Shown: positions 4,350-63,100 of the stretch, in pieces
Layout of the letters: each line of letters starts with the position of its first letter
Numbering within the stretch: position 1 is the stretch's first letter
Assembly (NCBI GenBank): GCA_963930775.1
Contig: OZ005698.1
Coordinates: forward strand, 5,152,501 to 5,216,500
From: Cliona cf. orientalis
Taxonomy: Eukaryota; Porifera; Demospongiae; Clionaida; Clionaidae
Reading direction: 5' to 3'
Length of the DNA stretch: 64,000 bases
The notes under the pieces: model-generated
The model's input: only the letters and a program-made list of their open reading frames with translations
The model's database searches: none
What the model was told of the DNA's origin: nothing
Program-made: the position numbers and the translations under genes

Positions 4350-7300
4350 CTAGTTCATGCTGCTGGGTGTTTGTTCAAGGTCCTCTCCCCTGACCCATTT
4401 GACCAGCCACCGGCCAAGCTCAGAAATCAGTTGACAGCACCAGCTGTCCACGACATAGCGCTGGAAGTAGGAGGAGAAGGTGTGGGGGAACGGCTGACCT
4501 CCATTTACATAGCAACAACAGAGCACAGCAGCAGCATGACGGAAAGAGATGTAGTAGTAATCTGGTATGACTTGAAGCTGAGTGAATCCAACACTATCGT
4601 AGAATCCTATGGGAGAGAAGAGAGTACACCATGTAATATGGAGTCCACCATATATACCATACATTATATACATGTACATGAATTCTTACCAGGAAAGCAT
4701 ATTTGCCAATTTGCCACAAGTTCTAAAACTACATATTGTTTACATAGAAATTTTCACTGGGAGAAAAATTTTGCCAATTCCGCCATCTGCTCTCATTGGT
4801 GAAAATTTTCACGTACATGTATTATGGCAGCAACCTTTTATCAGGGGCAAGCAAAGTGAGCCCCCCTTGCTTATAATATCCTATTGCCTGAGACTGACCT
4901 AAGGCTTGGGAGTTAGTGGCCAGTACATGGAGGTAGACTAGCAGGCAGCTGGAAAGGCCGGCAACATGGCTGAACAGCTGATTCATCAAATGTCGTCCTA
5001 TTCCCTGCCGTCTGTACTGCGACCGGACACCTGTGTGCACGTAGGCAATGTCATGTACATGTATACTATAATATTGTATAAGGAACCCAACATGTGTACA
5101 CATAATGTACTAATTACTATTGCACAATTACTACTATAGAAACTTTCAGGAAGTTCAAAATGGTACATGTACATGTACATGTAGGCATGGCACTTTTGAC
5201 CATGAAAATCACATTATTCCCAAGTGCAGTGGACTTTGGTAAGCATTCCAATGATAAGATATGCACATGATACATAACCGCTGTCATTCTTAACATACCC
5301 AAGCTGAGGACGTACATGACAGTGGAGTGAGGGGAAGGTTTATGCAGCAGTGGACCTAGCTCAGCCTCCAGGTCACTGAGAGACTGGAGCTCTGCCACCA
5401 GCATTCCCATCAGGCTACCATCACCTGTGAACAAACCCAGTGAGTACACCTGCAACGACAAACATTAGTGATGCAATATAATAGGTACACTACAACACTT
5501 GAAGAGGGGAGGGAAATGGAGGGGGGGGGGGTGAAGAATGGGAACCTAAGTGTATAGCCCTCTCCTCAGGCTCCCTTTAAAGGAGAGCCTGCATGCACAT
5601 GGCCATGTATGCTGTTGCAATTACACCTCTAATCCACCGCATCACCAATGAAAGTATATAGCAAGTATGGTTTGCCGACGATACCTCAGCTGGGGGGAAG
5701 CTTGAACACATCAAAAATTGGTGGGATAACATTTCTCGAATAGGTCCGGAATACAGTTACTTTCCAAACGCAAGCAAGACATGGCTCATCGTCAAAGAAG
5801 AAAACCACATGCAAGCAAGACAGATGTTTCAGGGCATTGGAGTCGTTATTACCCCCGAAGGAAAGAGACATTTGGGATCTGCAATTGGATCACACTCCTT
5901 TGTAGAGTGCTATGTTGAAGGGAAAGTATCAGAATGGAGGGCCAAAGTGCTTTCAGTGATACTCTCCATGATCTAATGGCACTACCGGCCTGTCTTGGGG
6001 GTCTGGGCATCATTGATCCTTCATACAAATGCATCACTCAATCACAGCTCCACTTAGCGATCTCATTGTACAGTAGTCTTAAATCTGTCCTCCAGAAACA
6101 CAAAGTATTTAGATTGGTGCAAATTATCGTGTTCGTACTAGGTGAAGATAAAGTGAGAGGGCAGAAGCAAATAAGATAGCTAACAAACCTCACAGAGAGC
6201 AATGGAAGTGTCATCTGAAAAAGGTGCTTCAACTTGGCTCACTACCCTTCTGATTGCTGATCATGGATTCACCCTTCATAAAGGTGCATTCTGTGATGCT
6301 CTGTGTTTGAGATATGGTTGGCATCCTGAGCAACTCCCGTCTCGCTGTGTCTGTGATCAAAAATTCACTATAGAACATGCCCTGAGCTGTTCTCGGTGTG
6401 GCTTTCCCTCAATCCGGCACAATCAGATCAGATATATCACTGCTGAATTTTTGACAGAGGTATGTCATGGGGTAGGCACGGAGCCAAGCTTGCAGCCAGT
6501 GACAGGTGAAAGGCCTGCACAGAGATCAGCAAATAGAGAAGATGGAGCCCATCTGGATATTGTAGCTGAGAACTTCTGGAGCCCGGCAACGTGCATTTTT
6601 TGATGTCCGGGTTTTTAACCCATTCGCACTGAGCTATCACAATACCTCCCTTACCCAATGCTACCATAGAAATGAACTTGAGAAAAGAAGAGCGTACGAT
6701 GAAAGGATCAGAGAAGTGGAGCATGGATCATTCGTTTTTTCAACAGCTAGGTGCCACAGCCAATGTAGTGTACAAGAGGATTGATTGCAGACAAACACAG
6801 CAAGCTGTATAGCAAGACCATGAATTGGCTCAGATGCAGACTCGGTTTCTCCTACACTAGCTGTGATGTGTCTGCGTGGATCCAGATCTTCCGGACCGAT
6901 CTTCCCTCCATCACCCCATCATTTTCATCTGTGGAAATATTGACCTGGCTGTAGCTAAGGGCCAGGGGGTATTCTAGACTTCTCGAACCATATTTTCATG
7001 CCTCTTATTTTTTCGCTATATGTGTAAACTCATATTTTTATCCCAATCTACAAGTGTACATGTCCTGCTACAGTTATTACATGTATGTACATGGTTAAAA
7101 ATACTTATTGCATGCTATTAAAGTGCTACTGTGTACCTTGTTAGAGGTAATGTAGTTATACCAGGAGTCTGGATAAGAAATGGGGAAGCACTCAATGCAC
7201 AGTGCCCTCACTTCCTCCAGGTGAGATGGAGTCAGGGGGTGAACAGTGGAACCTGAATACTGGCAAGGCTGTAAGGAGGGAGATCAAATACACTGCATTA

Positions 7301-7399: not shown

Positions 7400-7731
7400 T
7401 TCACTTCCAAATGATGCACACCTGGAGGCGACCTTTACCTTACCTTATTGACCTCGGATGGCCCCGGGCCCCCTTGTAGCGGGGTCCGGAAATTTTTGGT
7501 ATTGACGCATGCGTAATAGGATTATCGTGCAGACATTGTTATTAGGTGTCTGCTTATCAAAATGCAAAGCTCCCAACAAATGAATATCAACTTTGGCTGG
7601 GTGATGAATGTTGCACACAAAGCCATGTGCTGTTAGTTGCCTGAAGAGTATAAAGTCCTCAGAAAAGTTGGCATTCACTTCTCTGTCACAGCCAAGTTTA
7701 TTGGAGCGTAAATAGGAGCGACTGGTGCAGT
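7400..7731. promoter_or_regulatory. divergent promoter region between NAA60 and BCR
   Basis: Only 332 bases separate the inferred NAA60 start (7399, minus) from the BCR start (7732, plus). Both promoters and both 5' untranslated regions must lie here unless further non-coding exons exist. No TATA box is evident, as is common for housekeeping-type bidirectional promoters. Confidence 0.55.
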
Positions 7732-38923: not shown

Positions 38924-41900
38924 TTAGCAAGTGAGTTTAGCAAGCTCGTCGATGACCAATTCTGCTGTCGGACGCTCAGTCGGATTCTTCATCAAGCACA
39001 TATTCACAATTCTTAGGTAATCATTGCGATTTATTTCTGCTTTCAACTGATTATGGCTTTCAACGTCAGGAAATTTACCAGTGAATATTTCAATAAGGAG
39101 GATGCCAAAGCTGAAAATATCCATTTTTGGTGACTGAAGTGGAGGTGAAGTTGCCTCAGGGGCTGCGTATGCTGGGCTACCGGGGCCAACTGTCTTGAGT
39201 TCCTTCAGGAGGTTAACAGAGCCATAGTCAGCAATTTTAGCTTTCCACAGGTTCTTAGGAAGTGGGTCAAGAAGAACGTTTCCACTGCTTACATCCCTGT
39301 GGATGATTGGATCAGGTTTGATGTTGTGCAAATAGTTTAGAGCTTTCCCCACGTCAAGACCGATGCACTTTATTTGGAGAAAGTTCAATTTTTGTTCTAC
39401 TAAAACATGTCTAAGGCTTGTTGACATAAGTTCAGTTATGATGATAGGCTCTCGATCGATAGTGGCACCAATAAATTGTACCAGATTAGGATGACGTAAC
39501 CTTGCAGCCATATTCATCTCACGATTGAAAAGATGTCGGTTATAGTTGGATATTATTTCGCCGTAAAAGCATTTTGCTGCCACTTGAGTCTTGCGAAATG
39601 TAGCAATGGTCACCGTAGCCCAACCACCCTGACCCAGGATCTTCTCTCCGTGCTCTGGTATGTGAATTTCACTTCTATCTATTATCCACTGACAGTTGTT
39701 ACATTCTCTAACAGTAGCTGAAGATGCAAGTCCTATTTCTTTTTCATGCTCAACAATCTGTTTCAGGGATTCAACTTGCTGTTGCGTTCTCTCTAACTTG
39801 GCTTGCATTTCAACCATTGCAGCAGCATATTCAACTTGAAGACTAGTTTGTCGCATACCTTGTCTGCTATACATGTTCTGCAAGACGGAACGTGAATGTC
39901 AAAATATGCATAACAATTCATTTTAGATAAACTCTTATCACTTGTCCAACACAAGGGTTACTTTGTATCTTGTATGGTGACCCAGAAGGCCACTGCAGTC
40001 ATGCATGCACTAGCTAGCTGATCAAGCCATGATTTTCATTTTATCAGTGCAATAATATTAATTATTATTGAGAACTTGCCTGTAGTCTCTCTCTCTTTTC
40101 TTTAATTCTATTGGGTGCCTGACGCTCACTATTGATAGTCATACATGATATACTCCACTGCTTTGCAGAATCTGCCAAACAAATGATGTTATGGACAATG
40201 AAAAAATTTAATGAAGTTGCTTGATCTCACCTTTAGATAGCTGCACAATCAGTGTTTCAGCTATTGCAATGTAATCATTGGCAGTAGTGACTTCATCTGG
40301 CCAGTTACTGCACCCACCGAATATAATGACTTCAACATGATCATCGCCCCAACCAAGAGAGGTCGCCGAGTGGCCCCATCTTGAAATAAACTCTCTTGGC
40401 AAACAAATCTGTAAGTAAATATAGCATTAATCATTCCACTAATTGGCAAGGCAGCACTTCATGCTTTATGTGCATATCTAGGGAGTGCCACCTATCTCTG
40501 TTGAATTAAGGTGAGTATGCCAAATACCGGTAGTATGGTTGCTTGGTGTATAGTGTCTCCTTCGTGCTATGAAAATTGTTATTAATATACACAGCCTATG
40601 TACATTTCCATATTCATGAGGCTATCATGCAATATATGGTACCGATAGTGTATTAGGAAGTGCACATAACTCCTGTATTGTGCTAAGATGATGGTGCCAT
40701 AGCACACAGTTGATAGTACACAATTTACTGTGGCCAAAAATGCAAGCACTTTATTTAAGCCCATGGAATACTCGAGGGTATTCCATTGGTGGTGTTCTGA
40801 CCACGCACTGTGCAGCACACTTTGCCACTCTACCATGGCAATGTAGAGTACTGTATATGGGTAGGCCAAGCTATAGTGTAGTGCAATGGAAGGGGAATCA
40901 CACCAGTTTGCTCTACGGCCATTGTCATAAGGGATAGGATATGCTCTAGTAGCTGGTCATATTATTCAAATTTGATTTGACATCTTAATTAACCCTTTCA
41001 CACATCTCTAATTAAGAAGCATCTCTTGTGAGATTACCATAATTATTATAGTGGGAAGGGATTCAATTTCTCATGGAGGATAGGCGGTCTGCAACATTTG
41101 TGGATTCAGGACTCGTGATCATTATGGTAGCATATTGACATTGTGCAAGTATAGTGGTGTAGGAAGATGTTTTGGAGTAAGGGGAGGGGAGAGAATTGGC
41201 AATTGAGTTAGATAATAGGCTGCCACAATCTAGGGGCATGCTCTCCATGATCGGTTCTGGTGCATATTGATCAAAGTCTTTAGACAAGTGTATAGATGTA
41301 TAATACTATTACCCCGTGAGCATGCACAAGGGGTAAAGTAATCGGTTGTGTCGTCATTGTCGTTGTTGTCATTGGCAAAAAATTGCCATATCTCGAGACC
41401 TAGGCACCTGAGTGACTCATAAGCACAATGAATCTGATTCAGTCGAATTTGGCGAAAAACTGGCTTCAGTGTGCTTCGGAGCGTCATAAAAATTATAGTG
41501 CCTTTTTTGTTAGCCTTCATAGCCACACCTATTGACAGTGCCCACTCAATGCATTATGCATGCAGGTCTCATGTTTTCTGCTAATGCACACAATATATTA
41601 TAATGAACTGGTAAAGATTGTTGATAGTGCTCGTGACATATTTAATGTTTGGTAATGTTTGGCTGCTACAATAATATTATAGCTATCCGCAAATTGGAAA
41701 GCCCTATGGAACCGAATCAGAATGTAAGATAGCTATATCTTAACTTTCCCATGCACACAAAAGTAGATCTGTAGATTGCTCAATGTGTGCATGGGGTATG
41801 TGCTTACAGAGCTCTAGTTAATTACCGAGTACAAGGATTTCACAAGGGAGCTAAGATCTTACTATTTGGAACTAGGGGGGCTTTAGACCCCTCCCCCCAG

Positions 41901-44900: not shown

Positions 44901-47900
44901 TCGTGAGCGAGATCGAGCATGTGTATCGATTACATCATCGCTTGTGCAGTGCCACGCCCCTGGACTGGTTGTTGTCACGAAATTTAAAACTATGAAAATT
45001 AATTTTGAGGGCCTTTTCGGACTTTCCATGAAACTAACAACCTGCCATACGTTCCATACATTTGTATAGAAGCTGCTACATAGACCCCTTGAAATGAGGT
45101 ACATGGGCACTTAATTACCCAGGAGTGGGCGCTTGCCCGGGACACTATGGTATATGCATGACAACATTTGCCTAAAATTTGAGGATATTTTCAAACACTC
45201 GGTAAAGATACCAAATAATTGGAAGGGTCAAATTATTGGCCTAGACTACTATGAACATGATTTGTGCTCAAAAACTAAACCGGAAGCATAATCAAGGTTA
45301 GTTACCTACAGTTGCTCAAGATATCACATATATTTGTACACTTACACACTATGAAGTGGGAGTGGCAAGAGGTATAATAATATATCTCTTGCCACTCACT
45401 CTATACCACACACATACCCAAGAGTACATAAATACTTTACAGGTTCATAACCTTTGTTGTAGTAATATTCACATGCTTGAGGCCCTCTTCCTAGCCATTT
45501 GTACTGTAGAGCACTAGGTGATGTTGTCGGACCTTTGTGTACGAATATCATTACAAAGGTCATGACCCCCGTAAAGTGTTGTAACACAGTACCACCTAGT
45601 GAAACAGGATACTCTCCCTCCATATACATGTATCAGGCCCGTAGCCAGACGTTTTAAAAGGGGGGTGCACATGTGTATGGGTTTAGTGACTACCGTAAAT
45701 CGCGAATATTTCGTTGTTAAAATATTTCGGACAGCCAAGCTTGTGCGAAAATTGAACGCACGAAAATACATGCGCAATATTAACGATAATGCGGTACAGG
45801 GTCATTCGTCCGAAAATTATTTAACGCGAAATATTATCGCATGAAATATTTTAGACATGAAATATTCGGGATTTACGGTACTATAATAATTATGCATGTA
45901 TTGGTCACAACTGCTTATTGATTGAGGTGTGATATTAATTAGCTGCACTAAGTGTGGTTTTGTCAAGCTGATAGAGAGGATAGCATGCAGCCTCAGTCTA
46001 TTGCTCATGCAATTAAGAACTTCTGTGAAATGACATGCAATTATTAGGCTGAAAAAAGGGGGGTGCACGTGCACCCCCCTGCACCCCCCCCCCTGCCTAC
46101 GGGCCTGTGTATATTCATATGGTGCAAATTTTCATATTGTCTTGTGTAAGTCGAGCTATTCTGTATGCAAAAATAATCTGCATGAACCTTGAACTCACAA
46201 CAAGGGAGTAGCTTTGCAGTGTTTGTCAAGTCTTTGAGCAGCTTATAACAGAAGCTACAAAGCCTCGTGCACCCAGAGATGCTAAGCTGCAGCAGGGGCG
46301 GCTGAGGGTAGGTCAGTTTTGGGGGGGGGGGGGGGAGGAGGGGGGGGCACCCACAAATTTTGTAACAAATGTCATATATTTAGTACTATTTGGTATACAG
46401 AGCTTATAGTTAGCTAGTTAGGTCCACCTTCATGGCTATTACATTAGAATTTTGGTTCAAATTGGTGGTAGTAGGTGAGATGCCAGAAATACAGTGTACA
46501 TGCATCATAACAATAAAATGTAGGTCTAACTATAGCCATCCAGTTTGGGGGGGGGGGGGGGGGGGGGAGGGGGGGCGACTGCCCCCCTGTTCCGCCTCCC
46601 CTGTGCAGGTGAGCTGCAAAGACCTGGTCTGGCAGCTCTATATAGCTAGCATGTTATGAACTAAGATACAAGGAGTTAATCCATGGTCTTTTTGTCTAGA
46701 TAATAATAGATGAAACTACGTACGTTTCCTGCTGTGTGGTAATTAGTGGAGCAACGTTCTAAGAATGGCCAACAACAGCTAATAATTCGTAATGTAGTTG
46801 TACTTGTGCCTTCCTATGCTTGATATGCACTTTATTACTTGAGGACCCTTGCCTGCATCGAGTTTGAGTCGATTTGGCACATACCGTAGGACGGGTTTTA
46901 ATTGCGTAGTTTAATAATTGCGTTCTAGTCAAGTAAGGCCAAATTGCGAATCCAATAATTGCGATGGACGACCCCGTACCGTACTGTCGTATACGTGCAT
47001 GCTTATGTTTGCGAATCTATTAATTGCGAAACGTAGAAAAACTCGCAATTCGCATTTAATAGATACTCGCAATTAAAACCCGACCTACGGTATTATGCAT
47101 GGTCTTGCCAGATGTATGATCGATAGGCATGGCCAATACAATAATATATTCGTAACACTTGCGGCAAGTGCCTAGCATTAAGAAGCAGAAAGAGAGTTTG
47201 TTGCTCGTTCTGACTATTTGATCGAAACTACTTACCAATGACCGTAGTATCTTGATGGTAGACCTATAATATTTTCTGTGCCTACAACAAATTTTTATCC
47301 CTTGTGAACCTATAAGATAGGCCCAACTTTAGGTGAGTCAAAACAAATTGAAGCATTCATTTAAGATTAGGTTGGGATGTTAAGGGTCGTTTGTCTGAAA
47401 ATTATTTAACAATTATTGCATGAAGTATTGAAAGATTTACGATAATTATTGAAATATTATGAACCCACAAAACAATTAAAATCACTCTAGTAATACCTTT
47501 TCTAAGACTGTAAAGATGTAATTCATTGCTCCACCCTCGTCCATCTTCAAAATTATGATTGGCAATAAATGAAGATCCCCCTTGAATTGAGTTATCGAGA
47601 TTTCTACAGTATCCTCCAAAGAGACTTAAATTGTCCCCTAAACAGTATGCCAGCCCACAGCCCACTTTTATCATTGGAGCTCTACCTACTGATGATTCTC
47701 CGGAAAGCAATGACCACCGTTTCGTGCTGACATCTAGAACGTGTAGTGATCCATGTAGGTTTGATCCATCGTTGCCTCCATACACGTAGATATTGTCGAG
47801 AGCAGATACACATGCTCCTCGATATAGGCCAAAAAATGGTGTACCTTCAGTTATTTGTTCCTCCCAGCTTTCAAATAGTGAATCAAATGTGTTCACAGAC

Positions 47901-48034
47901 GATAAGAGTTCACCCCGCACACTGGCATCGGAAAGATTGAAGACTCTTCCACCGCACACATAAACAGTTCCTTTAATAGCTGCTGCATAGTGACCCCATC
48001 TTGGTTTCGGTTCATACGATTTCACAATCGACAT
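38924..48034 (-). CDS. kelch-repeat protein kinase (kelch, coiled coil, TKL-type kinase)
   Basis: Six minus-strand exons join in frame: 47497-48034, 44258-44418, 42085-42270, 40231-40408, 40080-40171 and 38924-39877 (702 residues). Residues 1 to about 330 carry kelch-type repeats with double-glycine steps (VYVCGGR, IYVYGGND, LSLFGGYC, ALLFGGHQ, LFISGGVD, VIIFGGCS) and trailing Trp positions. Residues about 398-432 are a predicted coiled coil (MQAKLERTQQQVESLKQI). The kinase spans about 455-702: glycine loop LGQGGWATV, Lys487 in VAAK, helix-C Glu505, HRDVSSGN (Asp580, Asn585), DYG instead of DFG (Asp602), and APE. The catalytic residues are present, so activity is likely. The family is tyrosine-kinase-like by overall look. 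The intron after exon 5 uses a GC donor. The start is the first ATG of the open frame, just before the first kelch strand. Confidence 0.85.
41305..41823 (+). mobile_element. copy B of the ggggtaaa/gagctctagtt repeat family
   Basis: Starts accccgtgagcatgcacaagg followed by ggtaaagtaatcggt, with tatctcgagacctaggcacc inside, and ends catggggtatgtgcttacag then agctctagtt. It lies in a kelch-kinase intron. Confidence 0.75.
42344..42778 (-). mobile_element. copy C of the ggggtaaa/gagctctagtt repeat family, inverted
   Basis: Reverse orientation: begins aactagagctctgtagagca then cataccccgtgcg, and ends gattactttacccttgtgca followed by tgcgcgcgggg. It faces copies B and D, so adjacent copies can pair as inverted repeats in the kelch-kinase pre-mRNA. 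Confidence 0.75.
42827..43548 (+). mobile_element. copy D (double) of the ggggtaaa/gagctctagtt repeat family
   Basis: Two heads occur in this stretch, gcgcttgcgcaagggggtaa at about 42830 and acatgcgcaaggggtaaagt at about 43240, but only one tail (tatgtgctctatagagctct near 43525). A second copy therefore seems to have inserted into, or duplicated within, the first. Confidence 0.65.
43903..43927. repeat. poly-C tract
   Basis: An uninterrupted run of C residues follows ctagccccc. Together with the preceding gggggctttagcccccc it resembles the end of an unclassified element. Assembly of such a tract is unreliable. Confidence 0.9.
44573..45152. mobile_element. MITE with taccgtagtgtcc termini in a kelch-kinase intron
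   Basis: Left end taccgtagtgtcctgggtaa; right end in reverse complement taccatagtgtcccgggcaa. Phrases such as gggcgct and tacccgagat are repeated near both ends. About 580 bp. A diverged relative of one end appears near 54420-54460. Confidence 0.75.
45634..46107. mobile_element. element with caggcccgtag termini and 5-bp duplication, host of a nested MITE
   Basis: Starts caggcccgtagccag and ends ctgcctacgggcctg, flanked on both sides by tgtat (45629-45633 and 46108-46112). Near both ends the inside reads ggggggtgcac in opposite senses. A separate MITE sits at 45691-45880. Confidence 0.7.
45691..45880. mobile_element. nested MITE with taccgtaaatc termini
   Basis: Left end taccgtaaatcgcgaatatt; right end in reverse complement taccgtaaatcccgaatatt, one mismatch in 20. 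Insertion at TA is consistent. A diverged relative (gaaaattatttaac, gcatgaagtatt) occurs near 47395-47440. Confidence 0.85.
46293..46603. mobile_element. element with caggggcgg/caggggagg termini and two poly-G tracts
   Basis: The left end caggggcggctgag and the reverse complement of the right end, caggggaggcggaacag, are similar. The 5-mer tgcag flanks both sides (46288-46292 and 46604-46608). Long G runs lie at about 46320-46345 and 46548-46577. The termini recall hAT-like elements, but the duplication is shorter than the usual 8. Confidence 0.55.
46882..47092. mobile_element. MITE with taccgtaggacgggttttaa termini
   Basis: The left end taccgtaggacgggttttaa and the reverse complement of the right end, taccgtaggtcgggttttaa, differ at one base. 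The interior repeats attgcga. About 211 bp, in the first kelch-kinase intron. Confidence 0.85.
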
Positions 48035-48179
48035 CTTGCATACAGTCACGCCCTATGTTGTGTCTTGCCCAGTGGAGCCGCGCGCATGCGCAAAGGGTAG
48101 CTAGGATCAGGTAAGTGCACAGCGTACCGGGTACGGACCTCGCATAGGCAAGATGGACGAGTACGCTGGAAGATACGAT

Positions 48180-48483
48180 AGAACGCAAGGGGTAAAACAA
48201 TATTATTGGTTTGTCTGTCGTCGTCAGCAGAAAATCCGAGAAAACCGCCAGATCTAGGCATCGGATCAACTCCTAAGCACATTGAAAAGCTTTGAATAGG
48301 CCCTGGCCCCATGAGCGCGAGCGTACTGCATTTTATTGGCCACGCCTATCAATTGCGCCCACTGCTGGCACAATATGCAGGTAAAGATCGTCAACAGCGC
48401 AAGCCTCACGAATGGTACAAATACTGCTGCAGCAGTATGAAGGATGCAGCACGCGAGGTATTTGCTCTATAGAACTCTAATGC
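48180..48483 (+). mobile_element. copy E of the ggggtaaa/gagctctagtt repeat family, upstream of the kelch-kinase start
   Basis: Contains acgcaaggggtaaaacaata, gtcgtcgtcagcag, tctaggcatc, ttggccacgcctat and ends tatttgctctatagaactct. It is diverged and lies about 150 bp upstream of the kelch-kinase ATG, on the side where its promoter should be. Confidence 0.65.
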
Positions 48484-48928
48484 ATTATTATGTACACTGA
48501 CATTGACACTTATCATTTGAAGTATTGTGTAGCTTAGCTAGTTCCACACTATAAAATAAAAATTGGGATAGTCTCAGGTGCACGAGACTAAAATTGGGAC
48601 AGGTTCAAATAGCTTGAAAGACCTTTTGACAATGGATAGGTTGAAATAATGAGTGAAGATATTATTATCATTGGATTGGTATAAATAGAGGCTGCAGTAA
48701 GTGACGGTGGGAGAGCCTGTCATGGGTTCGAACTTCGAGGGTAGTCCATTCCATTATGGTAGTTTATATCAGTGATAATAAGCCACTCTCATGAATGATT
48801 GCAATATCCTTGGTGTGCAGCAACTCTGGAGCTCATTTTTAGACACCTGCATATTATATAATTGAGGGGGAACCACTGACAGAACATAACTTAATGTGCT
48901 GTTTTTGAAGCCCATGCATAGTTACTGT

Positions 48929-49281
48929 TAGTCTCGCGCAGCCAGACTCTCTCTCAGGGAAAAGGGGGAGGGGGAAGGGGAGGGAGAGAGTCTGGTAAAG
49001 TGCTATATATACATCGAGTTGTCCCAGCGCCTCGTACGAGGCGCGACCAATCAGATTGCATCTTTATGGCATTACATAGTTTGCGGTGGCGTATCCGACT
49101 ATGAACGGACGAGATACCATTGCGCACGCGTGTTTATTCTCCGTTCACAATCCGATATGCCACCGCAAACTAAAGATTGGTCGCGCCTCGTACGAGGCGC
49201 TGGGACAACTCGATGTATATCACTTTACCAGACTCTCTCCCTCCCCCTCCCGAGGTGTAAGAGTCTGGCTGCGCGAGACTA
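48929..49281. mobile_element. palindromic MITE, TAGTCTCG...CGAGACTA ends, 9-bp target duplication
   Basis: Starts tagtctcgcgcagccagact and ends agtctggctgcgcgagacta, flanked by agttactgt on both sides (48920-48928 and 49282-49290). Inside, a further inverted pair (catcgagttgtcccagcgcc and its complement) makes almost the whole 353 bp a single palindrome. Same terminal octamer and duplication length as the nested element at 25149-25364. Confidence 0.88.
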
Positions 49282-49290
49282 AGTTACTGT

Positions 49291-50214
49291 AGGGTAGTGC
49301 ACCAAATTTAAAAATTAATGAGAAAATATCACCGACACTTCCATTATAGCACATCTAGTCTGTAGTGTGTGTACATATTAATCTTTGCTTTTTTATGAAG
49401 TTGAATTTTCAATATTCAACACATCATATCAGCATAATAATAATCATCTGTTATATTAAACAGCTTGTAATGCTCTGTGACAATGTTGGCTGCTTTTGGT
49501 AGCTATTATTATGACATTGTCACTGTCAAGCCATAGCTAAATTATTGCACAATGTTATAATATGTGCCCTGCACTGAAATTCTCGAAGTCGCGTGAATAG
49601 CAACTATGACTACATAGTGCATAGCAAAAAGGCTACCTCAGCTCAGTAGTCAAGACCTCAGTTTATCTGTCTATAGAAAAGTGGGCCAAGAGCACACCTA
49701 GCTTCCCCAATTCCTATGCCTGTGACAGTATCTCAGTCAATAATAAACATCTTCCAAGCCAATGTAGTAAATCGCAAGCTCATACCTCCTGCACTCTTGA
49801 TGGTGATAAACATACTAGCTAACTATCGCTAAGGCAATGAAGGAAATTCAAGCCCATTTAAGCAGCAAGTAGCTACTTCCTCCATGGCCAACCTGCACCC
49901 AATCACCAACATGTTGACAACAACACTGATTAGTTATTTCCTCCTTCTATAGCTAATCACATTGATTCCTATTCATGCACGCAATGTATCATCACCCATG
50001 CATAAAGAAAGGCAAACAGCTTTTTCTATCCATGAAGAGACAAGTGTGCCTTCTTCAAAATGTGATCCATGCAATGACATGCATGATCTCCGGCCTTGAG
50101 TGAGGTCTGAAGGAAATTTGAGCATTTGTCAACATGTTTATGGTTTATGATGAGCACTACGTATACAGCTAGCTCTGTCAACAAGAGTCTGGAGAGTGTA
50201 GGTGACCGTATTTC
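49291..50214. other. intergenic region upstream of the small secreted precursor
   Basis: No recognised gene or element. It is less repeat-rich than its surroundings and lies directly upstream of a TATA-driven gene, so regulatory sites are plausible but none could be named. Confidence 0.4.
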
Positions 50215-50222
50215 TATAAAAG
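50215..50222 (+). promoter_or_regulatory. TATA box
   Basis: The octamer tataaaag lies 80 bases upstream of the ATG at 50295. A start site about 30 bases downstream would leave a 5' leader of some 45-50 bases. TATA boxes of this quality are typical of strongly or conditionally expressed genes. Confidence 0.6.
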
Positions 50223-50294
50223 GAGCTTGAGCAGTTGCAACCTCTCCAGGTCAACTCTAGCCGAATCGACTATTAAACTTCTGCAAGCACCACA

Positions 50295-50792
50295 ATGAAG
50301 ATTTTCATCACCTTAATCGTTCTGTCCGCTCTTGGCCTTATCCATGCAAAGCCTGCTTCTCAGTCCAACTTCAACCAAGAGGAAGTCAAGGCTTTGCTTC
50401 AGAACCTTATGCGAAGTGAAGCCTATCAAGATACTGATGCAGATGAATTGAGCAATCAGAACAATGTCAATGCACTGAGCTTGGAAGATGAAACTGTCAA
50501 CAACCAAATCTTTGGCTGGGCATTAAAATCGGCTATTAAAAAGATATTTAATCGCAAATTTCGAAGTAAAATGTTTAAGCTCTTCAAGCCATGTTTGTGC
50601 GGTCGTGAGGAGCTGGTAAAAGAGCAGCAGTCTGATGATGATGACGATGGTGGAGCTGAGGTGATGCAAGATGATGATTCTGATGGTGGCATGAATGCGG
50701 AGGCAGAATTCTTAAACTTCAAGAGGATGAAGAAGTGTGTATTCAGGAAACTTAAAAAGCTTCCTGGATTGGCTTGGAAATATGCTGGATAA
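50295..50792 (+). CDS. small secreted precursor with cationic and Asp-rich segments
   Basis: A single-exon gene of 165 residues. Residues 1-18 are a textbook signal peptide ending at HA|KP. Residues 19-68 are acidic. Residues 72-98 (from FGWALKSAIKKIF to KLFKP) are strongly basic with spaced hydrophobic residues, as in an amphipathic helix, and are followed by CLCGR. An acidic linker with two Asp runs (113-131) separates this from a second basic, Lys/Arg-rich block at 142-165 that ends KYAG. There are three cysteines (100, 102, 148). The alternation of acidic and basic blocks is the usual layout of a precursor from which cationic peptides are released, for example antimicrobial or membrane-active ones. 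No family was recognised and function is inferred from composition only. The ATG follows a TATA box and no other in-frame ATG precedes the signal peptide. Confidence 0.75.
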   Translation: MKIFITLIVLSALGLIHAKPASQSNFNQEEVKALLQNLMRSEAYQDTDADELSNQNNVNALSLEDETVNNQIFGWALKSAIKKIFNRKFRSKMFKLFKPCLCGREELVKEQQSDDDDDGGAEVMQDDDSDGGMNAEAEFLNFKRMKKCVFRKLKKLPGLAWKYAG

Positions 50793-51833
50793 ATGCTACA
50801 GAACTGCTGATTGGACTATACATAATATTATCAACATTAGGGGATTGTGTTAGTCATAGACCCTAGCTATAGTATAGTATTAATGCACTATGATTACTCT
50901 GTTGAACTCCAATAATGTTTATAGTTGCTTTCTACTCCATATACAACTATTATCAGTTGCATCCTCTTAGATTGTGAAAATTGAATAATTTTAGATATTA
51001 AACTTCTCATGTGGAATACCCCTGGGTGACGATGCTGCTGTCACCTGTGGCACTCGGCTAGATGTTTTAGCCATCAGGCCCAACTCATCAAAATTATAAT
51101 CATAAGCTGTAGGACTTGTATACGAGCCCTAAGATTTTTTCATGGAAAGTGCTACAGCTCATGAACATTATTTGTTACTTATTAATGGTCCCTTTTCTTC
51201 CTTTCACCCTTCTCCTATCAGCATGAGGGAACACAGCGCTACTTTATAGCTTGCAAGCCAGCCCCTCCCCCTCACCTGTACAAGCAGCAAAACGCTGTGG
51301 GCGGAGCCCATGCACCCGTGGGGCAGCAGTTGAATAAGGAGTGGAGTTTTTCAGCACGGGCTTAGCAACAGCGCTTTGATTATGGTATGCATCTATGGAT
51401 AATAATATACTTATAATAATTAATATAGCCTCGTACCTTACATGACGCTGGCCACGTGCCTGATAGAGGTGTGTATCGTCTCAACTTAATTATGCATTAA
51501 TAATAATAATTATTATGCGTTATTAGATAATAATTATGGTGTGTGGGTGGTTATTTGCAGGTAGAATTTTTTTACGGCTTGGTATACTGTTGTGGGAGTA
51601 GCGATATTAATTTTTGATGGGGTGGCCTAGAGCCATGATGGATAAGGTAAACTGGGATATAACTGGTATTCGTACATCATATCTTCGTGATTCCTGCTAC
51701 TCAATATGGAATTTCCCCGTATGTGAAATTACCACTGTTTACTTAGCTGGTGGAGAGAGTATGATGTGTACCATAATACTCCACTTCTTCTAGAGTAAGG
51801 TGATCTAACTCCACTGGCAATGACCTTCGTTAG
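50793..51833. other. 3' region of the secreted precursor and gap before ANAPC7-like pieces
   Basis: AT-rich. An attaaa hexamer near 50997 could be the polyadenylation signal of the precursor gene. I searched for a first exon of ANAPC7 here and did not find one. No repeat with clear ends was recognised. Confidence 0.4.
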
Positions 51834-51865
51834 TTCCCTGCCAAACATGCTAGTGTCCTTATCTG

Positions 51866-52560
51866 CAGTGGCATATCTAGACTTGTAACGTTACCCGGGC
51901 ACTTGGTGGACCCAGTAGTGACTTGAGAATTTGAGACTCCTATCGACCTCGATCTCTCCCAACCCAATGAAAAAAATCTTATTACATTTGTAATAGCTAT
52001 ATACCTCACAGCCAAAACAAGTGGGTTGTTAACTTAACCCATAATGTGGGTTGCCTAAGTTGCATGCATACATGCACTACCTTCTCCCATGATGGTTCTC
52101 AAAATAACTCGGTTAATCATAGTGATTAATGAAGTATTCACTCCATTATACATAACTAATAGTATGTCAAACATGCGAGTTTGTTAATAACAAACTGGCA
52201 TTATATTACTTGCACTTAATACTACTTAATTGTCCCATAATAGTTTTCAAAACTGGACAAGAAGTACGTGCAATATTATGCCAGACTGGCATGCATACTT
52301 GATATTATTATCTGTAGTGGAGTGAACACGGTATTAATTACTATGATTAACTGGATTATGTTGAGAACTGTCATGGGAGAATTAAAAATGTGTGCAACTG
52401 AAGTAACTCTCATACATTATAGGTTAACGCGGGTTAACATGATCCACTTATTTTTGCTTTGAGGTACTTGATCCTTAATTGAATTGGCTATTTTACCAGG
52501 GCACGGGCCAGTTTGGCCTGGGCCTGTGCCCTGGTAGGCCCTGGTGTAGCTACGCCACTG
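51866..52560. mobile_element. non-autonomous hAT element with perfect 8-bp target duplication
   Basis: The element starts cagtggcatatctaga and ends tagctacgccactg, the CAGTGGCGTAGCTA-type hAT terminus, and is flanked by cttatctg at 51858-51865 and 52561-52568. An 8-base duplication is diagnostic for hAT. It contains remains of another element (about 52010-52460) shared with 58197-58990. It lies inside the first ANAPC7-like exon piece. Confidence 0.85.
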
Positions 52561-52904
52561 CTTATCTGTTATGCTGACAATCGTCTTGAAGACTTCCAGT
52601 ACCGGAGAGCCATTGTAAGTGTCTACATTGCCTTTGCCTTGTACCGGGTCCTTCAAGAGGAGGAGAAAGGGCCTGGTGGTGCACACTGCTCATGCACGTA
52701 TGCACCGGGGGTCCCAGAAAATGTAGGGGTAATTGGATGCTATATAGCAGAGTCGGAGCCAGCATTATTCAAAGTATTATTATTGTGTAAGCTGATGGTA
52801 GGACATAGTCCCAGCAGGAGGAGGATGTCTTTCCTTCCACACAGAGCACGGAAGCTCAAGGGTATTATGATAGTGAAATGTACTGATATGATTACGTAAA
52901 TCAT

Positions 52905-53080
52905 TGCCTGGTTGTAACAGGAGTAGAGTATGCAACACACATAGTAGTAGTACAACCATCTCTTTCTAGATTAATTTTGACGTCACGGAACTAACGACAA
53001 CGACAACGACAACAATGACGACGATGACGATGACACGACCGATTACTTTACCCCTTGCGCATGCGCGCGGGGTAATTACA
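52905..53080 (-). repeat. solo terminal-repeat copy and truncated copy F of the ggggtaaa family
   Basis: Near 52920-52975 the phrase gcaacacacatagtagtagtacaaccatctctttctaga matches, in pieces, the terminal repeat of the element at 61400-62157. It is followed by a truncated, inverted head of the ggggtaaa family (gaccgattactttacccctt at about 53037). Confidence 0.6.
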
Positions 53081-55260
53081 TAACTAGCGTGGTTCACCAT
53101 CTGTGTGATGTGTATGTACATGTATGTGTGATGATCCTGTACCGCACAGCCAAATCTAAATCTGCTCACTTTGCCCATTACACAACCAGACAGCCATGGC
53201 CCTACATGTCAGTGTAATTTAGATGGTGTAATTGGTCAGCCAGTTGTGTAACTAGATTGAATTGCGTCATGATCGATGATAACGATGCACAACTATTGCT
53301 GTCTTCCATTGAAAGCCTCGCTACCGCTGCTCAATTGGTGCCCAGGTGTATAATAGCAGTCCCAGGCTGAGTGTCTGTACAATGGGTCATCTGGCTGTGT
53401 ATCCATACCGGGAATTGGGGCATCTGTGCATATGTATTATGGTACCAGTAAGAAATTTTTATTTTGGTACGTGGTTTTGAAGGTAGACCACATATTAACC
53501 ACCAAATTTAATTTTTCTGCCAAAAATTGTGGCCATACTGTAACTCTTTCCTTTTGATCTGTGAATGCATGGCATTGTTAATAGGGTAACTGATATACCT
53601 GCTTACTATTTCACAGCTGCAATCACTTATCCTGTCTAGGAAACCTAACACTATAGCTGCCAGGTGATGAATAATGTAGTCTATTGCAAGTATGTATAAT
53701 AATTTTCGCTAATGTTGTATCACGAGCAGCCCTCCAATTGCTCTTGAGAGAGCCATGAAGGTGGATGCAACATTTGAAAGGGCGCCTCTCACTCTCAGTA
53801 GCCTGTACATGTTAGAAGGAATGGCAGAAAAAGCCGTTGAAGTATTAATTAGTAATAACTTTATGTTTAGTTGTGTACAGATGCATAATTATAGAAGTGT
53901 CCATTATCCTCCTAACCAGGTCTGAAGTATTACTGTTCCTCATGGGACAAAATTTATTGAGAAGCATGATTGATCTAGGGATGTACATTAATTTTAGACA
54001 TTGATTTCTAATTGAGAGGCCTTGTTGACCACATTCATTAGGATACACTTAGTGAGAGTATTGATTTTTGGCTTAGTTGTGACTCTAAGGATCCATTAAC
54101 CTGGTATGTGGTGTGTCTGCTTAATGAAAATGTCCTTTTAGCAACTTGCTTTGATGTTCGATCCTTGTTAGTGATATTGCACAAATCTGAGTAATAATTT
54201 TACTCGGGCTTTCACAATATTCAGAGGTAATAATATTATTATTATTCCACCTGCATGTGCGCCCCTAATACAGAATGAAATTTGCCTTTCCATAGATAAA
54301 GTTTGTGAAGAGTTATGGTAGCCACATGCCTAATGCACTGACTCTGGCCCACATTGGCACTTAACCAGAGAACAAGTTGCAAGCGTTTGTACGGAAGTAG
54401 CTACATACCAGTGGGATAATGGGATTTGTTCAGGAGTGAGCACTTGCCTGGGATGCTGATATTTGTTGTCTGTGTATGCATCTGTAGCTACATAATATTG
54501 GAGATTAATTTGGTGACAGTAACTTATGAAGCCATAATAGATTTATATGGAGAGGAACTGAAATGCTTCATACCATTAATTTGTAAGACAGTAATTGTCC
54601 CATTAGCTACACGTGTACAAATATTACAATGTCATGACATTGTAGGTAGAGCTCATTGCTGGCAACATATCTATGCTGGAAACCACCATTATTGTCCTTT
54701 TAAGTGTGTGGATGTGCATGTGGGAAACAGCTTCTCAATGAAATCTGTATGGACGTGGAAATAAATACACACACTCAGTTTCCAGGATTATCCAATAACT
54801 CTGGGAGATAAGCGATCTTGATAATATTATGATTCTGCTGACTTGGAATAATTTATTATGTCTCTTTCTCTCCCACTCCCTCTCCCTCTTCTTCCCCTAC
54901 TGACCAAGTGCAGTGCGCAGAATTAATGTTGAATAATGATATGAGGATAATTAATGCTGAATAAAGATAATCGTAACAATATTGAAATGACATAATAATA
55001 TTATTATGACCCCCCATACCCGGTACCCTCGTGTATGCACTGTTGGCATTGATCATTGTTATTGATTTATGATCGTTGTACATTCCATGTGGGTTTTTCT
55101 CTGGTAGCCTTGAATGGCAGGCAGCTCTGAGAAGACTCTGAAGGGTGTGGAGTGCGTCTCTTCAATGCCTAGTGACGAGGGAGGAGGAGGAGGAGAGGGG
55201 GACAAAGCCACTATTGACTTCTACCTGGAGCTGGATGAGGACAATGGAGTAAGAAAGAGG

Positions 55261-55283
55261 GGGGGGGGGGGGGGGGGGGGGGA
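55261..55283. repeat. poly-G tract
   Basis: A run of G residues directly after the aagaaaga that follows the third ANAPC7-like piece. It is probably unstable. Confidence 0.9.
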
Positions 55284-58196
55284 AGGCGAGCAGGGAGGGG
55301 GTGGGGGTGAAATTCTGAAATTCTATGTATTTTCATTAACTAGCTTTCGACTTCAGTAATTATTGATGGGATCAAGGAGGGAATGGGAACTTAGCATGGT
55401 CCTAAACTAGTCCCCAGGCCCTCCAGTGTCTTTGCGTGAACATGCACTTACAATATCTATTGGTCCTGGAGATTGAGGCAGATTGATACATACCAATGGC
55501 ATGTATCAGCAATTAATGTATACCCTCGAAAGCATAATATTACTGAGTTTATAATGTGGTGGTTAGTGCATGCAGAGAAGAAGTTCGGGTAGGTGACAGC
55601 TTAATAATAATAATGATCGAAAGAGGAATTCAGTAAACATGGCATTGTGTGTAACTACTTCCACACACTCACCATCTGCTGCATTACTGTCCACTGTGCA
55701 TTCTATGCGTCTCTACTCAAAGTGACCACATGCCCTGATTAAGTGCATTAACATACTAGCTGTATCACATTACTCTGGCTACCATAGCTACAATAGTAAT
55801 ATTATAATCATTGATGTATAGAAATACAGTGGGAAAGTGGACAGTTTAGACTCTGGCTAGGGCTGGACCATCACTTCCAGTCATGACTACTGAAGCCATG
55901 CACACAAACCAAAGCCAAGTTCTAGTAATATTAAGGCATTCCTGTGGCATAATAATTACTGTCTGCCATGCACATACACTGTGACCATGGTATATATGTT
56001 ATGGCATGCAATTACACCAGAAGGTGTTGGAATAAAATAGTACATGCAAGTCTCTTATACTGTGGCTTCATGGTTTATTTGAATTATACATCGGATCTGG
56101 TGACTTGCTCTAAACCACTGGGCTTCGCCTGATGGTTTAACTGCATGATGCATGTATAAACCACTCCAGGCTATGATTATGATTATGTAGGAAGTATGTG
56201 ATCATCCATTTGCCTTGGTTGTGTGGGAGTTGAAGTGTATCCTGCCTTCCCAGCATATCAGTCATTTCCTGGTATTGTGTGCAAACCAGTTGATAGTGCA
56301 GAGTACAAATGTCAGGCAATTTGCTTTTATCCTTATCCTGTGATGGATTACAGGTGGCAACCTTCCTGTACTGAGTGCAGGTGGCAGTCTTCCTGTACTG
56401 GGTGCATGTGTGATATTATTGAAGGTGGGCTTCACTCTATTCACCTACCTGACTACCATCTGCCCTTCCTGCATGTTATTACTTCTACTTACAGGGATAA
56501 ATACAGGGGGTACCCTAGGACCCCCTCCCTCCCACTGGTATGTTCCCCCTCTGAGTAATATACTCAAATTTTTCCTTGGGGAGCATGCCCCCAGACCCCC
56601 TAGTTTGGGTATGCTACCACGTGCTAGAATTTTCCCCCTCCGCAAAAAAATCCTATATTAATCACCTCTGACGTACATATGCTGGTGAAGCCACACAGAC
56701 AATATTATTATAGGAGTAATCTGCAGGGAGTGGCCTGGGGACAGGCTACACAATGGCAGGACCCATAACAAAGCCCATGCCCTTTGTCACTGGACCACTG
56801 AATTGTCAATAATAATTGTTATTGACATGTATTATAATTGATTTCCCAGACAGTTTACTCTATATTATGATCAGAGCGACCCAGGGATGATCACTAATTC
56901 TGTTTATCTGTATCAGGATAGTACTCCATTGTACTCCATTGATATAATTGTATATCCTGGGTAAGTGTGTGCTTATGAGGGTTGAAATCAAGAGTTATGT
57001 GAAGCGCCTGCTTACCTGATAGACAAACAGAATTGATATAGATTCTAACTTATAGTTATAACACTGTTAAAAAATGTGGTGTTAAACCTGGTATTAAGCG
57101 GGACAAACTAATTTCACAGTTTACTGTCACAGACTTTTCGATTTTGCATGCGGGCAGGCAGTCATTACTCTAATTTCAAACTAGTGAGAAATGTCAGCTT
57201 CGAACTTATGATCGCTGAGGCCATGCCCTTCAATTGCAGGCTCAAGGGGGTGGGGCCAAAGTGCCATATAGTTGCTGTATATATACAATCTGAAATCTGA
57301 AATTTTTTGAGAAATCTAAAAATCCATGCAGGCGATGCCTGTGTTACCCAAACTCCCCATGGGGTGTGTAATAAGTACACTTTTAGGTATTGGAGAATCA
57401 CCCAAAGGGTACACATGACATTTACTTGTACTCTCACTGGGGGCATATTATGGGTACACTCCATGTGAATTCACACTACATGAATATGAGGTTTAGGTTA
57501 TAAGGTGAGTGCAGGCTGTCACAAAATTATTATGACAGTCTTCTGAAATCTTGTATTAGGTTATCCAGGGCTCTTGGCCATGCACAGCAGGCTGCATGCA
57601 GGAATAGTAGAAGTTTCAAGTGGTGTGGTAGCTAAACTAGTTTTTGGTGGTCTATAGCATCCACTCATCTGAGGAAACCACTTGACCACCAGCATGCCAT
57701 TGGGTCAAATTTTAGCCACTGGTAATCGTCAGTTTCTTCTTGTATGCTCACATCTCTGCCTGCATGCCTTTATAATTAGTTTATTCACTCATGATCAACA
57801 GTACTCAGCACTAGTGATATGGAGAACTGATCAGTATAATAATAATATTGTATCACCCGCATCATCAATAATTATTATTAAGTGCTGGAGACTATTAATT
57901 ATTCATGATTAAGTGCTTTGCAGTTGGCTGGATTAAACATTATTATTATACTCCTAGCTACTGATTGTATTATTGTTGATCACTGTCGTGTTCACTGTGT
58001 CTTACTACCTGCATTGACCTTGTTATGTGAAACTTTGATGGATTCACTCTGGAATCTGTTGTTGAAAACGTTGTGGCACTAATACATCCAATTTAAAATT
58101 CCGTAAGCATCTGGTGACTAAGTGTATACAGAGATGAAGATATAATTATTGTCTTAATTTTATAATCTCCAACTCGCTGTAAAACTGAATGCTTAT
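55284..58196. other. intergenic region
   Basis: No gene was recognised in 2.9 kb. The only structured feature is a two-copy 27-bp tandem repeat at 56351-56404. Small open frames are short and show no domain-like composition. Confidence 0.5.
56351..56404. repeat. two-copy 27-bp tandem repeat
   Basis: The unit caggtggcaaccttcctgta plus ctgagtg is followed at once by a second unit with two substitutions. Confidence 0.8.
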
Positions 58197-60101: not shown

Positions 60102-63100
60102 ATGGCAGGTGACTACGGAGTTGAGATCTTCGAGAGTAAGGTTGATAAAAAAGTTACCCAATCCGATGAATCTTCTTTTGGCTTTCCGTCCAACAAACGT
60201 AAGAGTGACTCATAAAAGTTAACTATCAGGGTATTAGGCTATGAGCTATTTGCATATCCTGGTATAATGTATGCATGCAGATGGAAGATACTACTATGGA
60301 GTATCAGTTGTGACTGGAAAGCAGAAGGGAGCAGGAACGTCAGATACTGGGGTTTTTGTGCAGCTCGTTGGCAGCAAGGGCCAAACGAAGAAAGTATACC
60401 TGCAGAATTACCTATCCATCCTTCTTGGCCGTGATATTGATGAAGATACGGTGGAAAATCTGATCATCGAAAGTAGTGGAGACCTTGGAGAGGTGTTGGT
60501 GGTGATCCTAGGTAATGATAAGAGCTGGCTAGCACCACTCGGAGCTCCTTGGTTTGTCAATGAGGTACAGGTGCACAATTTCCAAAATAAGATCCACGAG
60601 AGATTTCCCTGCTATCACTGGATTGGTGACGGAGATGAAGTTAGCTTCACAGCCCACACAAGTGAGTTTCAATGTTGGAATCTGATATTCTATATGAACC
60701 ATGTAGCTATAGTTATGCTATAATATGTATACATGCAGCCACCTTGAAGGATGTGTCTCAGGATCAAGTTTTATCCAAACAGCGAGAATTGCAGCTAGAA
60801 AGGCGAAGGGCAGAGTACAAATGGGAAAGGCAGTCCGACTGGGGTCTTCCATCGAGCATCGATTCAAGTGTGGCTAAGCTGCCGGATGATGAACAGTTTG
60901 AGAGGGTCAAAAATGTTGATTTCACTGCGACTGCTCTCAAAAATGGGGTGAAGATCCGAATTCAAGCAGGCTTCAATGACATTGAGGACGTCGAAGACTA
61001 CAAGAAGGTGGCTACTGTCCTTGACATTCCAGAGATACAAGTCTACCATGCTGCCAGGTGGACCACTGATGTGGAGTTTGGCCGGCAGGTGCTGAATGGA
61101 GTCAATCCCGTTGTGATCAAAAGGTGCACTGCACTTCCTGACCCTTCTGTCTTTCCTGTTACTAATGACATGGTGAAAGGATTTCTCAATAGAGGACTTA
61201 CCCTTGAACAGGAAATACAAGTAAGTTACTGGCTTCCTGTATTATCTGTAGCTACAGTTATTAATTAATTTGCGTGATTATTCGTTCCTACTGCCCCTGT
61301 TACAGTGTAATAGGCTTCTCTAGCTGAGTTTATAAGATTATAGCTGTGACCATCCTCGAGACCCAGATATATAGTCATACTATTGTTATTGTATAATACC
61401 AGGAGTACATTACAAGGAATGTGCAACACACACAGTAGTAGTACAAACATCTCTTTCCAGATTTGACATCACAACCACCCTTGTACATGGGCCTGAATAT
61501 CATTAAAAGGTACTTAAGTTGCAACCACCTCTGTGTAGTTGCAGCTGCAGCTAGTTTCTGATAGGACAGTGCAGACACAACATTCATGGCTTCATGGTTT
61601 TAATGGTTGTGTGCAGAGGAGGTTGGACATAACCATGTGCACACAAAAAGTGGGCGTATTGCCCCATATATAACACTATACAAAATGTAAGTCACGATCT
61701 AAAGCCTTGAAGACAGTTTTAAAATTAATGTGAAAAGTTGAAATCCATGATAAAAGAAGATCCAGCGCCATACCCCGCCCGTCCACCCCTCACACTTCTT
61801 GCAAATCGAGAAAACTCATTCCTCAGAATGGCAACATTAAATACTGTATTTGTTGATTGCAGTCAGCTTCTTTCGCTGTTACAACATTAGATCTACACGA
61901 TTCAGCTCTGTTTCAGCTTCAGATTTAGCCATAGTTCACAAATGCAAACATTTTAGCTACCAGCTACACTCGCAAATGGCATTCTTTTGAACACGTGGCA
62001 GCATAATTGCATACCAAGGTCATGTGACTACAGCGCAAGTGTGTGTCATGTCCAACCTCCTCTGGGTTGTGTGTTAATGATATTCTGTGATGTCAAATCT
62101 GGAAAGAGATGATTGTACTACTATGTGTGTTGCACACTCCTGGTAATGTACTCCTGATAATATAATGTCATGCAATTGACATGCAAAAACACGAGAATCA
62201 TTTTCTCCAGTTTAGGTTGCCTCGGTTCTTTTTTAATGAATGTCGCTTGCACTATTATGCTTGGCAATGATAGCCATTGGCCATTACGGTATTATCACTG
62301 TCAATGGCTTCTGAAGCCAAGCTATGTTTTACTTGATAGATGCAAGGAAGGCTAGCTACCATGTGTTTCCTGGTCAACTGAAGCCACTAAGTTCGATACA
62401 ACAAGGAATAGTGTATAGCTAGTGGCCAGGAATGACAGTAAATGTAATAATAATTATTGCATGGTAGTAGGGAGTGCTAGAATATTATGGCTGTATAAGC
62501 TGGATAGCATGGACCTATACCATGCTATGTGTTACATGATTGTTTATAACTTCATGAGTAACATATAGGGATTCAAAATGACTGTTTTAGCTATAGCTAC
62601 TATAGAGCCACATAGCTGTTCATTCAGCCATGACTCAGTATTAGAGACTGCGTGTCTGGGCATGTCCACCTCGAGTAGTGATAGTGAGTGCCACTGTCGA
62701 CTTGGATTAGTTAATCTAACCTGCATGTACAAGACTCGTCGGCAACTCGCACTTATGGCTGGCATATTTTTAGTGCCGTTATGGCGAAGACTATGATTTT
62801 CTCTAGTATAATATATCTATGCAGCATCCAGCTCTAGTTTAACTCGGTAGATTAACTTATTAAGTTTGGTGAGTTGCATGATAGACCATGTGCATGATGA
62901 TAATTTGCAATATTAGGCTGGACATGTGTACATATGTGACTTGACCGTCATGGATGGGCTTCCAACTCGTGAGGGACAGTATTGTGCTGCTCCCACTTGC
63001 CTGCTCTATGTCAATGGCAGTGACCAGCTGGTTCCCATAGCCATCCAGCTGAAGAAGAAACCAGCTGAAGACAACCCCATCTTCCTCCCCAGTGATAACT

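Follow-up and report, generated by a model that had tools for sequence, protein, structure and literature searches.

The centrocins of sea urchins (EeCentrocins and SdCentrocins) are synthesised as precursors in which a 20-residue signal and a 30-residue prosequence precede a cationic heavy chain, an excised interchain of 24 residues and a light chain, the heavy and light chains being joined by a single disulfide (PMC4805251). In the published description Gly-Arg acts as an amidation signal, the pI is 5.2–5.7 for the precursor and 10.0 for the mature peptide, and the preprosequence and interchain are conserved while the chains are variable; one light chain is inactive alone, and Gly-Arg does not always lead to an amide (PMC4805251). 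The arminins of Hydra and the arminin-like precursors of placozoans have a signal, a strongly acidic N-terminal part, a basic end and a final Gly, and one basic C-terminal region is described for them (PMC12013895). Halocidin and dicynthaurin of tunicates are linear helical peptides whose chains are joined by a single disulfide (PMC10608444). Among sponges, ASABF of Suberites, a 64-residue, defensin-like peptide with a Cys-stabilised fold (PMC12466427, PMC3210614), is counted by a recent review among the few well-characterised antimicrobial peptides, and the same review states that many compounds formerly credited to sponges are now thought to be made by their symbionts (PMC12466427).

Here we describe a gene of the reef-boring, photosymbiotic demosponge Cliona cf. 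orientalis, located on chromosome 10 (C10, 9,786,199 bases) within the window, the whole 64-kb stretch of DNA that was analysed. Its product (copy A) resembles the centrocins in carrying a signal, a prosequence, a cationic chain, an interchain and a second cationic chain in one ORF, a likeness of layout in which excision of the interchain is presumed. The comparison is made by layout and description between a sponge and sea urchins, and the sponge genome also holds many-repeat polyproteins. Copy A further differs from the centrocins in its Gly-Arg after the first block with a bare Gly ending the second, in the CxC of the first block and in its Asp-rich spacer. Precursors of plants, insects and frogs carry several antimicrobial peptides between acidic spacers; the chromosome 13 genes described below are like these in layout, whereas copy A has two unlike blocks. 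The arminin layout is shared by copy A in its signal, acidic N-terminal part, basic end and final Gly, but in place of a single basic C-terminal peptide copy A has two basic blocks split by an acidic spacer, and Cys residues. ASABF is likewise a sponge antimicrobial peptide gene; copy A, with three mature Cys and no Pfam family above cut-off, falls outside the defensin-like type. The likeness to the tunicate peptides is one of description.

A duplicated gene with alternating charge

The ORF at 50295-50792 is uninterrupted over 165 codons by direct reading and translation. The features that a preliminary description had picked out were all recovered: a signal-like hydrophobic N-terminus (residues 1–18), a TATA box, CLCGR at residues 100–104, KYAG as the C-terminal end, Asp runs between the basic blocks (residues 114–118 and 126–128) and the alternation of acidic and basic segments. 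In window coordinates, the locus comprises:

50183..50936, + strand: duplicated, predicted transcription unit with promoter, single-exon ORF and 3' flank (blastn and sliding identity)
50215..50223, + strand: TATA box TATAAAAGG, 80 bases before the ATG (direct reading)
50295..50792, + strand: coding sequence (CDS) of copy A, 165 aa, single exon, intact in all three genomic copies found
50295..50348, + strand: putative signal peptide, residues 1–18, a hydrophobic stretch assigned by eye and by hydrophobicity, with probable cleavage after IHA
50349..50507, + strand: acidic pro-part, residues 19–71, net −7 by charge count
50508..50606, + strand: basic block 1, residues 72–104, net +10 by charge count, IFGW...KPCLCGR
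50592..50600, + strand: Cys100 and Cys102 (CxC) in basic block 1, kept in all three copies (alignment)
50601..50606, + strand: Gly103-Arg104, candidate amidation signal, kept in all three copies (alignment)
50607..50708, + strand: Asp-rich acidic spacer, residues 105–138, net −14 by charge count, ending NAEAE
50709..50789, + strand: basic block 2, residues 139–165, net +9 by charge count, ending KYAG
50736..50738, + strand: Cys148, sole Cys of basic block 2, kept in all three copies (alignment)

When the mature part was shuffled 10,000 times, 0 to 24 shuffles reached the charge range seen over 25-residue windows (fractions of 0, 0.0006 and 0.0024 for copies A, B and C, respectively); the basic maximum taken alone was weaker (0.0105, 0.0595 and 0.0426). 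A strict scan of both strands of the 64-kb window for ORFs with a hydrophobic start and both strongly basic and strongly acidic 20-residue windows returned 50295-50792 as the sole ORF to pass, and no ORF passed at 20 other loci in the genome (63,168 bases); relaxed limits admitted two additional ORFs in the window. A structure model of copy A (AlphaFold, three-sequence alignment) is of low confidence (pLDDT 41) and places predicted helices at residues 68–84 and 87–112. The amphipathicity expected of a helix in block 1 did not rise above the block's own shuffles (p 0.74, 0.23 and 0.44), and that of block 2 did so weakly (p 0.02, 0.06 and 0.03).

Whole-genome DNA and protein searches (216.8 Mb searched; the published assembly is reported to total 217.17 Mb, PMC12639293) revealed two other intact copies, copy B at C10:2997331-2997846 and copy C at C10:3005558-3006052, with 86 and 85% DNA identity and 78 and 77% protein identity to copy A. 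The same three copies, and no others, were returned when the query was copy C, the first 71 residues, or promoter plus leader DNA. Because two other genomic copies are intact, we take the ORF to be a real gene and not a chance reading frame. Copies B and C lie together in an array from which copy A is 2.2 Mb away. When window positions 45001-56000 were compared by blastn with two 10-kb paralog regions, each gave one long block of 82–83% identity, and the resulting unit begins just 5' of the TATA box and ends about 145 bases downstream of the stop; outside this unit, across the 11 kb compared, five short matches of 33–65 bases were the only others, some of them inverted. Copies B and C are alike across about 1.4 kb plus further pieces, some inverted. 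The sequence TATAAAAGGA occurs at −80, −93 and −93 in copies A, B and C. Retro-duplication was considered for copy A, as its single exon and sharp edges would fit, and set aside: since the shared block includes the TATA box, an RNA intermediate alone is insufficient.

Copies B and C differ by substitution at 3.6% of CDS sites, as compared with 9.7% and 17.4% for their flanks, and their CDS has three indels of 3, 15 and 3 bases. For A-B and A-C the divergence of the CDS (11–12%) is no lower than that of the 5' and 3' sequences within the unit (8–11%); the nucleotide aligner fragments the CDS indels of these pairs, which the protein alignment shows as whole codons.

Nonsynonymous change is concentrated in the basic blocks. 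Compared with the rest of the protein, the blocks hold 24.5/144 vs 19/252 changed sites for A-B (p=0.0069), 29.5/145 vs 18/244 for A-C (p=0.0002) and 10.5/143 vs 2/248 for B-C (p=0.0011), three comparisons that share branches and hence are non-independent, and synonymous changes show no such enrichment (p 0.56, 1.0 and 0.19). The signal region has one nonsynonymous difference in A-B, one in A-C and none in B-C, leaving out an extra codon of copy B. By the Nei-Gojobori method overall dN/dS is 0.73, 0.69 and 0.57 in the three comparisons, none individually significant; the Asp-rich spacer gives 0.35 (A-B) and 0.30 (A-C), neither individually significant, basic block 2 gives 1.07 for both of these pairs, and dN/dS is nowhere significantly above 1. 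The signal, acidic pro-part and Asp-rich spacer are conserved while the basic blocks change fast, a pattern that resembles known host-defence peptides and is shared with the centrocins, in which pre-, pro- and interchain parts are conserved and the chains variable.

Precursors of similar layout on chromosomes 10 and 13

The region C10:2948001 to 3011999, read gap-free in pieces, holds an array of + strand genes at 2958344 (163 aa), 2963785 (276 aa), 2967536 (192 aa) and 2985859 (195 aa), followed by copies B and C, which are themselves single-exon secreted ORFs with cationic blocks between Asp-rich parts. The four neighbours are mutually related (E 1.1e-10, 1.2e-8 and 4.9e-6 to the 192-aa protein). 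Those at 2963785, 2967536 and 2985859 have two segments each, with the sole Cys of each segment at its end, and the gene at 2958344 has one Cys in all. Graded by eye, three of the six Cys-ended segments are weakly charged: both are strongly cationic in 2963785, one is strongly and the other weakly cationic in 2967536, and both are weak in 2985859, which fails even the relaxed filter and was found among long ORFs. Between copies B and C, C10:3000453-3000560 shows a weak match to the 192-aa array protein (E 3.7e-4) in a 39-codon frame and may be a relic; another weak match to this protein lies at C10:1634829-1634984 (E 0.0014).

A second cluster, on chromosome 13 (C13), was read in four parts (7486-7496, 7498-7508, 7524-7530 and about 7588-7596 kb). 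In its precursors as many as five cationic blocks are set among Asp-rich parts. One of 365 aa has three cationic repeats with AEAQ before each, another of 276 aa has a Pro/Arg-rich end, and further members are:

L062:725-2518 (C13:7590725-7592518): secreted-looking precursor of 597 aa, with four near-identical cationic units and Asp-rich spacers of LEDILAKLQ type between them
L063:234-2156 and 3014-4261 (C13:7524-7528 kb), minus strand: secreted-looking precursors of 640 and 415 aa, in which helical, Gly/Tyr-rich and long Arg-rich blocks occur together with Asp-rich parts
L066 (C13:7498001-7508000), minus strand: four tandem related ORFs of 250–343 aa, with a leader like that of L063, weaker charge blocks and ends of RGFFETIKQFFKNLYQ type

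Two of the four weaker-charge ORFs pass the strict filter and two the relaxed filter only. The 597-aa precursor matches Pfam Qua1 at E 1.3e-5, yet below the curated cut-off. Adjoining the 365-aa precursor are two related short secreted-looking ORFs, L065:4835-5263 and 6453-6791 on the minus strand (C13:7.49 Mb), possibly another small secreted family.

By place (its paralogs B and C stand in the array) and by layout, copy A belongs well within this wider set. Sequence comparison is suggestive of homology, short of proof. A search with block 1, spacer and block 2 found, besides the three copies, C13:7589260 (E 0.008, 52% over 65 residues), C13:7489871 (E 0.49) and one further match (E 7.2); the first two fall in secreted-looking precursor ORFs with Asp-rich parts and cationic blocks. 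In the reverse search from the C13:7589155 precursor, copy A was the second match (E 0.021), and this precursor is the best non-paralog match (p=0.002 vs shuffles keeping local composition). Against shuffles that preserve composition within 10-residue pieces, copy A without its signal scored above chance with five of nine other precursors (p 0.001–0.045, nine uncorrected tests) and at chance level with four (p 0.144, 0.402, 0.139 and 0.618). In a profile comparison, the alignment to the four C10 neighbours was confined to the first 22 residues, which are the signal region (probability 78.6, pairwise E 1.7e-5). The two clusters are linked by a match between the 276-aa C10 protein and the 365-aa C13 protein (E 8.5e-4). 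A C12 match (E 4.66) was rejected as weak, as were several weak genome matches whose frames were short or not secreted. Many genes of the set have a TATA-type promoter: 12 of 16 carry TATAWA between −62 and −128, compared with 6.7% of background 80-base stretches, the range having been fixed after looking and A, B and C being non-independent among the 16.

Ten non-paralog members were scanned against Pfam, and no family reached its cut-off for any of them. For copy A, too, no Pfam cut-off was reached and no convincing PDB sequence match was found, so the clear match to an unrelated family that would have spoken against a precursor of this kind did not appear. The nearest candidates were dismissed: Madanin in Pfam (E 0.094, below cut-off, residues 3–58) and 18 weak matches among PDB sequences (best E 0.062), 17 of them to one kinase and one to a phage protein. 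No relative was found in viral contigs and GTDB genomes by scans with two short peptide patterns each, which are hence insensitive, in phage records by tblastn, or in plasmids with the 192-aa array protein as the query in place of copy A; a bacterial or viral origin of the gene is not supported. Six strings from copies A to C had no occurrence in the non-subscription papers searched, and nothing matching was seen among the matches listed for sponge or Cliona antimicrobial precursors. The family, its host phylum, the clusters and the Ala-Glx junction described below appear new, and the acid-masked, multi-chain antimicrobial precursor is a known kind. The preliminary description knew of no named family with this layout; a partial answer is that the centrocins have nearly the same one (PMC4805251) and that arminin-like precursors are partly alike (PMC12013895).

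Candidate processing signals and cysteines

Of the 29 basic blocks in 14 precursors, 16 have Ala-Glu or Ala-Gln among the ten residues that precede them. The expectation is 3.7, and 0 of 5,000 random placements reached 16; copies B and C are left out as near-duplicates of A and internal repeats are included, the blocks not all being independent. Counted by eye, 8 of these 16 have Trp, Phe or Gly immediately after the pair. No such junction precedes the remaining 13 blocks, among them block 1 of copy A and every one of the five in the C13:7590725 precursor. We propose from these counts that Ala-Glx serves as a processing signal; we know of no enzyme assigned to it. Copy A has no dibasic site before block 1, and Cys148 is preceded by a furin-like RMKR in copies B and C and by RMKK in copy A.

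Mature copy A has three Cys (Cys100 and Cys102 in block 1, Cys148 in block 2), of which one-to-one pairing leaves one over. The single end-Cys per segment in the three C10 neighbours suggests that two chains of one precursor may be paired. The Gly-Arg and the final Gly are kept in all three copies. The genome has 13 matches to the convertase P-domain, and furin and PC7 are described in another sponge (PMC6850559). It also has ten exon-size matches, six without an internal stop, to the C-terminal family of copper monooxygenases; these were set aside as evidence for an amidating enzyme, as PAM could not be separated from related hydroxylases. The convertase-type and copper monooxygenase-type domains would permit convertase cutting and amidation, and do not show them.

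The proposal of a precursor made in the preliminary description has gained from the three conserved copies, from the focusing of change in the basic blocks and from the genomic set of secreted acidic and cationic precursors. Its more specific parts are still predictions: that exactly two peptides are released, and that Gly103-Arg104 or Gly165 is a site of amidation.

Candidate functions

From the sequence features above, the gene probably encodes a secreted prepropeptide that belongs to a family of host-defence peptides in Cliona and releases two cationic, likely disulfide-linked and putatively membrane-permeabilising peptides; we hold this reading with reasonable, not high, confidence. During storage, the acidic segments would keep the basic blocks neutralised. 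Proteolysis would take place at the Ala-Glx junction ahead of block 2 (NAEAE|F), with the cut before block 1 probably falling after Gln71 (NQ|IFG), and the ends might be trimmed by monobasic or dibasic cutting (GR|EE, RMKR|C). Gly103 and/or Gly165 could be converted to C-terminal amides, and a disulfide from Cys148 to Cys100 or Cys102 would produce a two-chain molecule. The released peptides would then bind and permeabilise microbial membranes.

The same alternation of Lys/Arg and Asp blocks could belong to an uncut polyampholyte, a secreted matrix or mineral-handling protein that meets silica through its Lys/Arg blocks or calcium through its Asp runs. The C13 precursors with poly-Arg and Gly/Tyr-rich stretches would suit such a product, the wider set could serve structural roles, and the animal makes spicules and dissolves carbonate, being described as a bioeroder (PMC12639293). 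We nevertheless judge this unlikely: the basic blocks change fastest, although conservation would be the expectation for a binding block, many of the blocks have an Ala-Glx junction before them, and the discrete cationic units starting with Trp or Phe (WGFFKK, GWFKK) are in our judgement more like membrane peptides. The one spicule protein compared, hexaxilin of glass sponges, is described as a relative of the metallo-beta-lactamase fold, another kind (PMC10772126). A precursor cut by convertases, amidated and acting on sponge cells (neuropeptide-like) or on the algal symbiont would account for the conserved Gly-Arg and final Gly and for the RMKR of two of the three copies. Receptor-bound peptides are usually short and conserved. 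The present blocks are long, highly cationic and fast-changing, and copy A lacks both an R-X-K-R site and a dibasic site before block 1; a signalling or symbiosis-control role is in our estimate quite improbable, even with the convertase P-domain matches in this genome, furin and PC7 in another sponge (PMC6850559) and the intracellular Symbiodiniaceae reported for this host (PMC12639293). Least probable by far is a relaxed, perhaps non-functional duplicate with a leftover open frame. The overall dN/dS values, with no pairwise test significant, are what such a duplicate could give; three intact frames, in-frame indels, a B-C CDS less diverged than its flanks, a TATA box kept in all three copies and the nonrandom concentration of changes all speak against it.

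More speculatively, the host-defence precursor may be one member of a sponge peptide superfamily of clustered single-exon polyprotein genes, each holding a private cocktail between Asp-rich masking spacers and cut at Ala-Glx instead of the usual dibasic signal, which would police microbes and perhaps intracellular dinoflagellates. The cocktails in this tentative picture might include helical, Gly-rich, Arg-rich, Pro/Arg-rich and disulfide-paired cationic peptides. If true, a host-encoded, clustered multigene family of acid-masked cationic peptides would make the innate peptide arsenal of a sponge readable from its genome. The two-chain precursor design known from sea urchins would then also occur, whether through descent or through convergence, in an early animal lineage, and the control that a photosymbiotic sponge exerts over its microbes and algae would become directly accessible.

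The surroundings of copy A hold several other features. Upstream of the gene, a long inverted repeat seen by eye at about 49005-49222 of the window is perhaps a small mobile element, and a Kelch-repeat exon lies at 47402-48049 (minus strand). A protein-kinase ORF is found at 38924-39883 (minus strand), and downstream, at 60271-61268, are exons of a PLAT-domain lipoxygenase (Pfam PLAT 1.1e-11, Lipoxygenase 1.1e-9).
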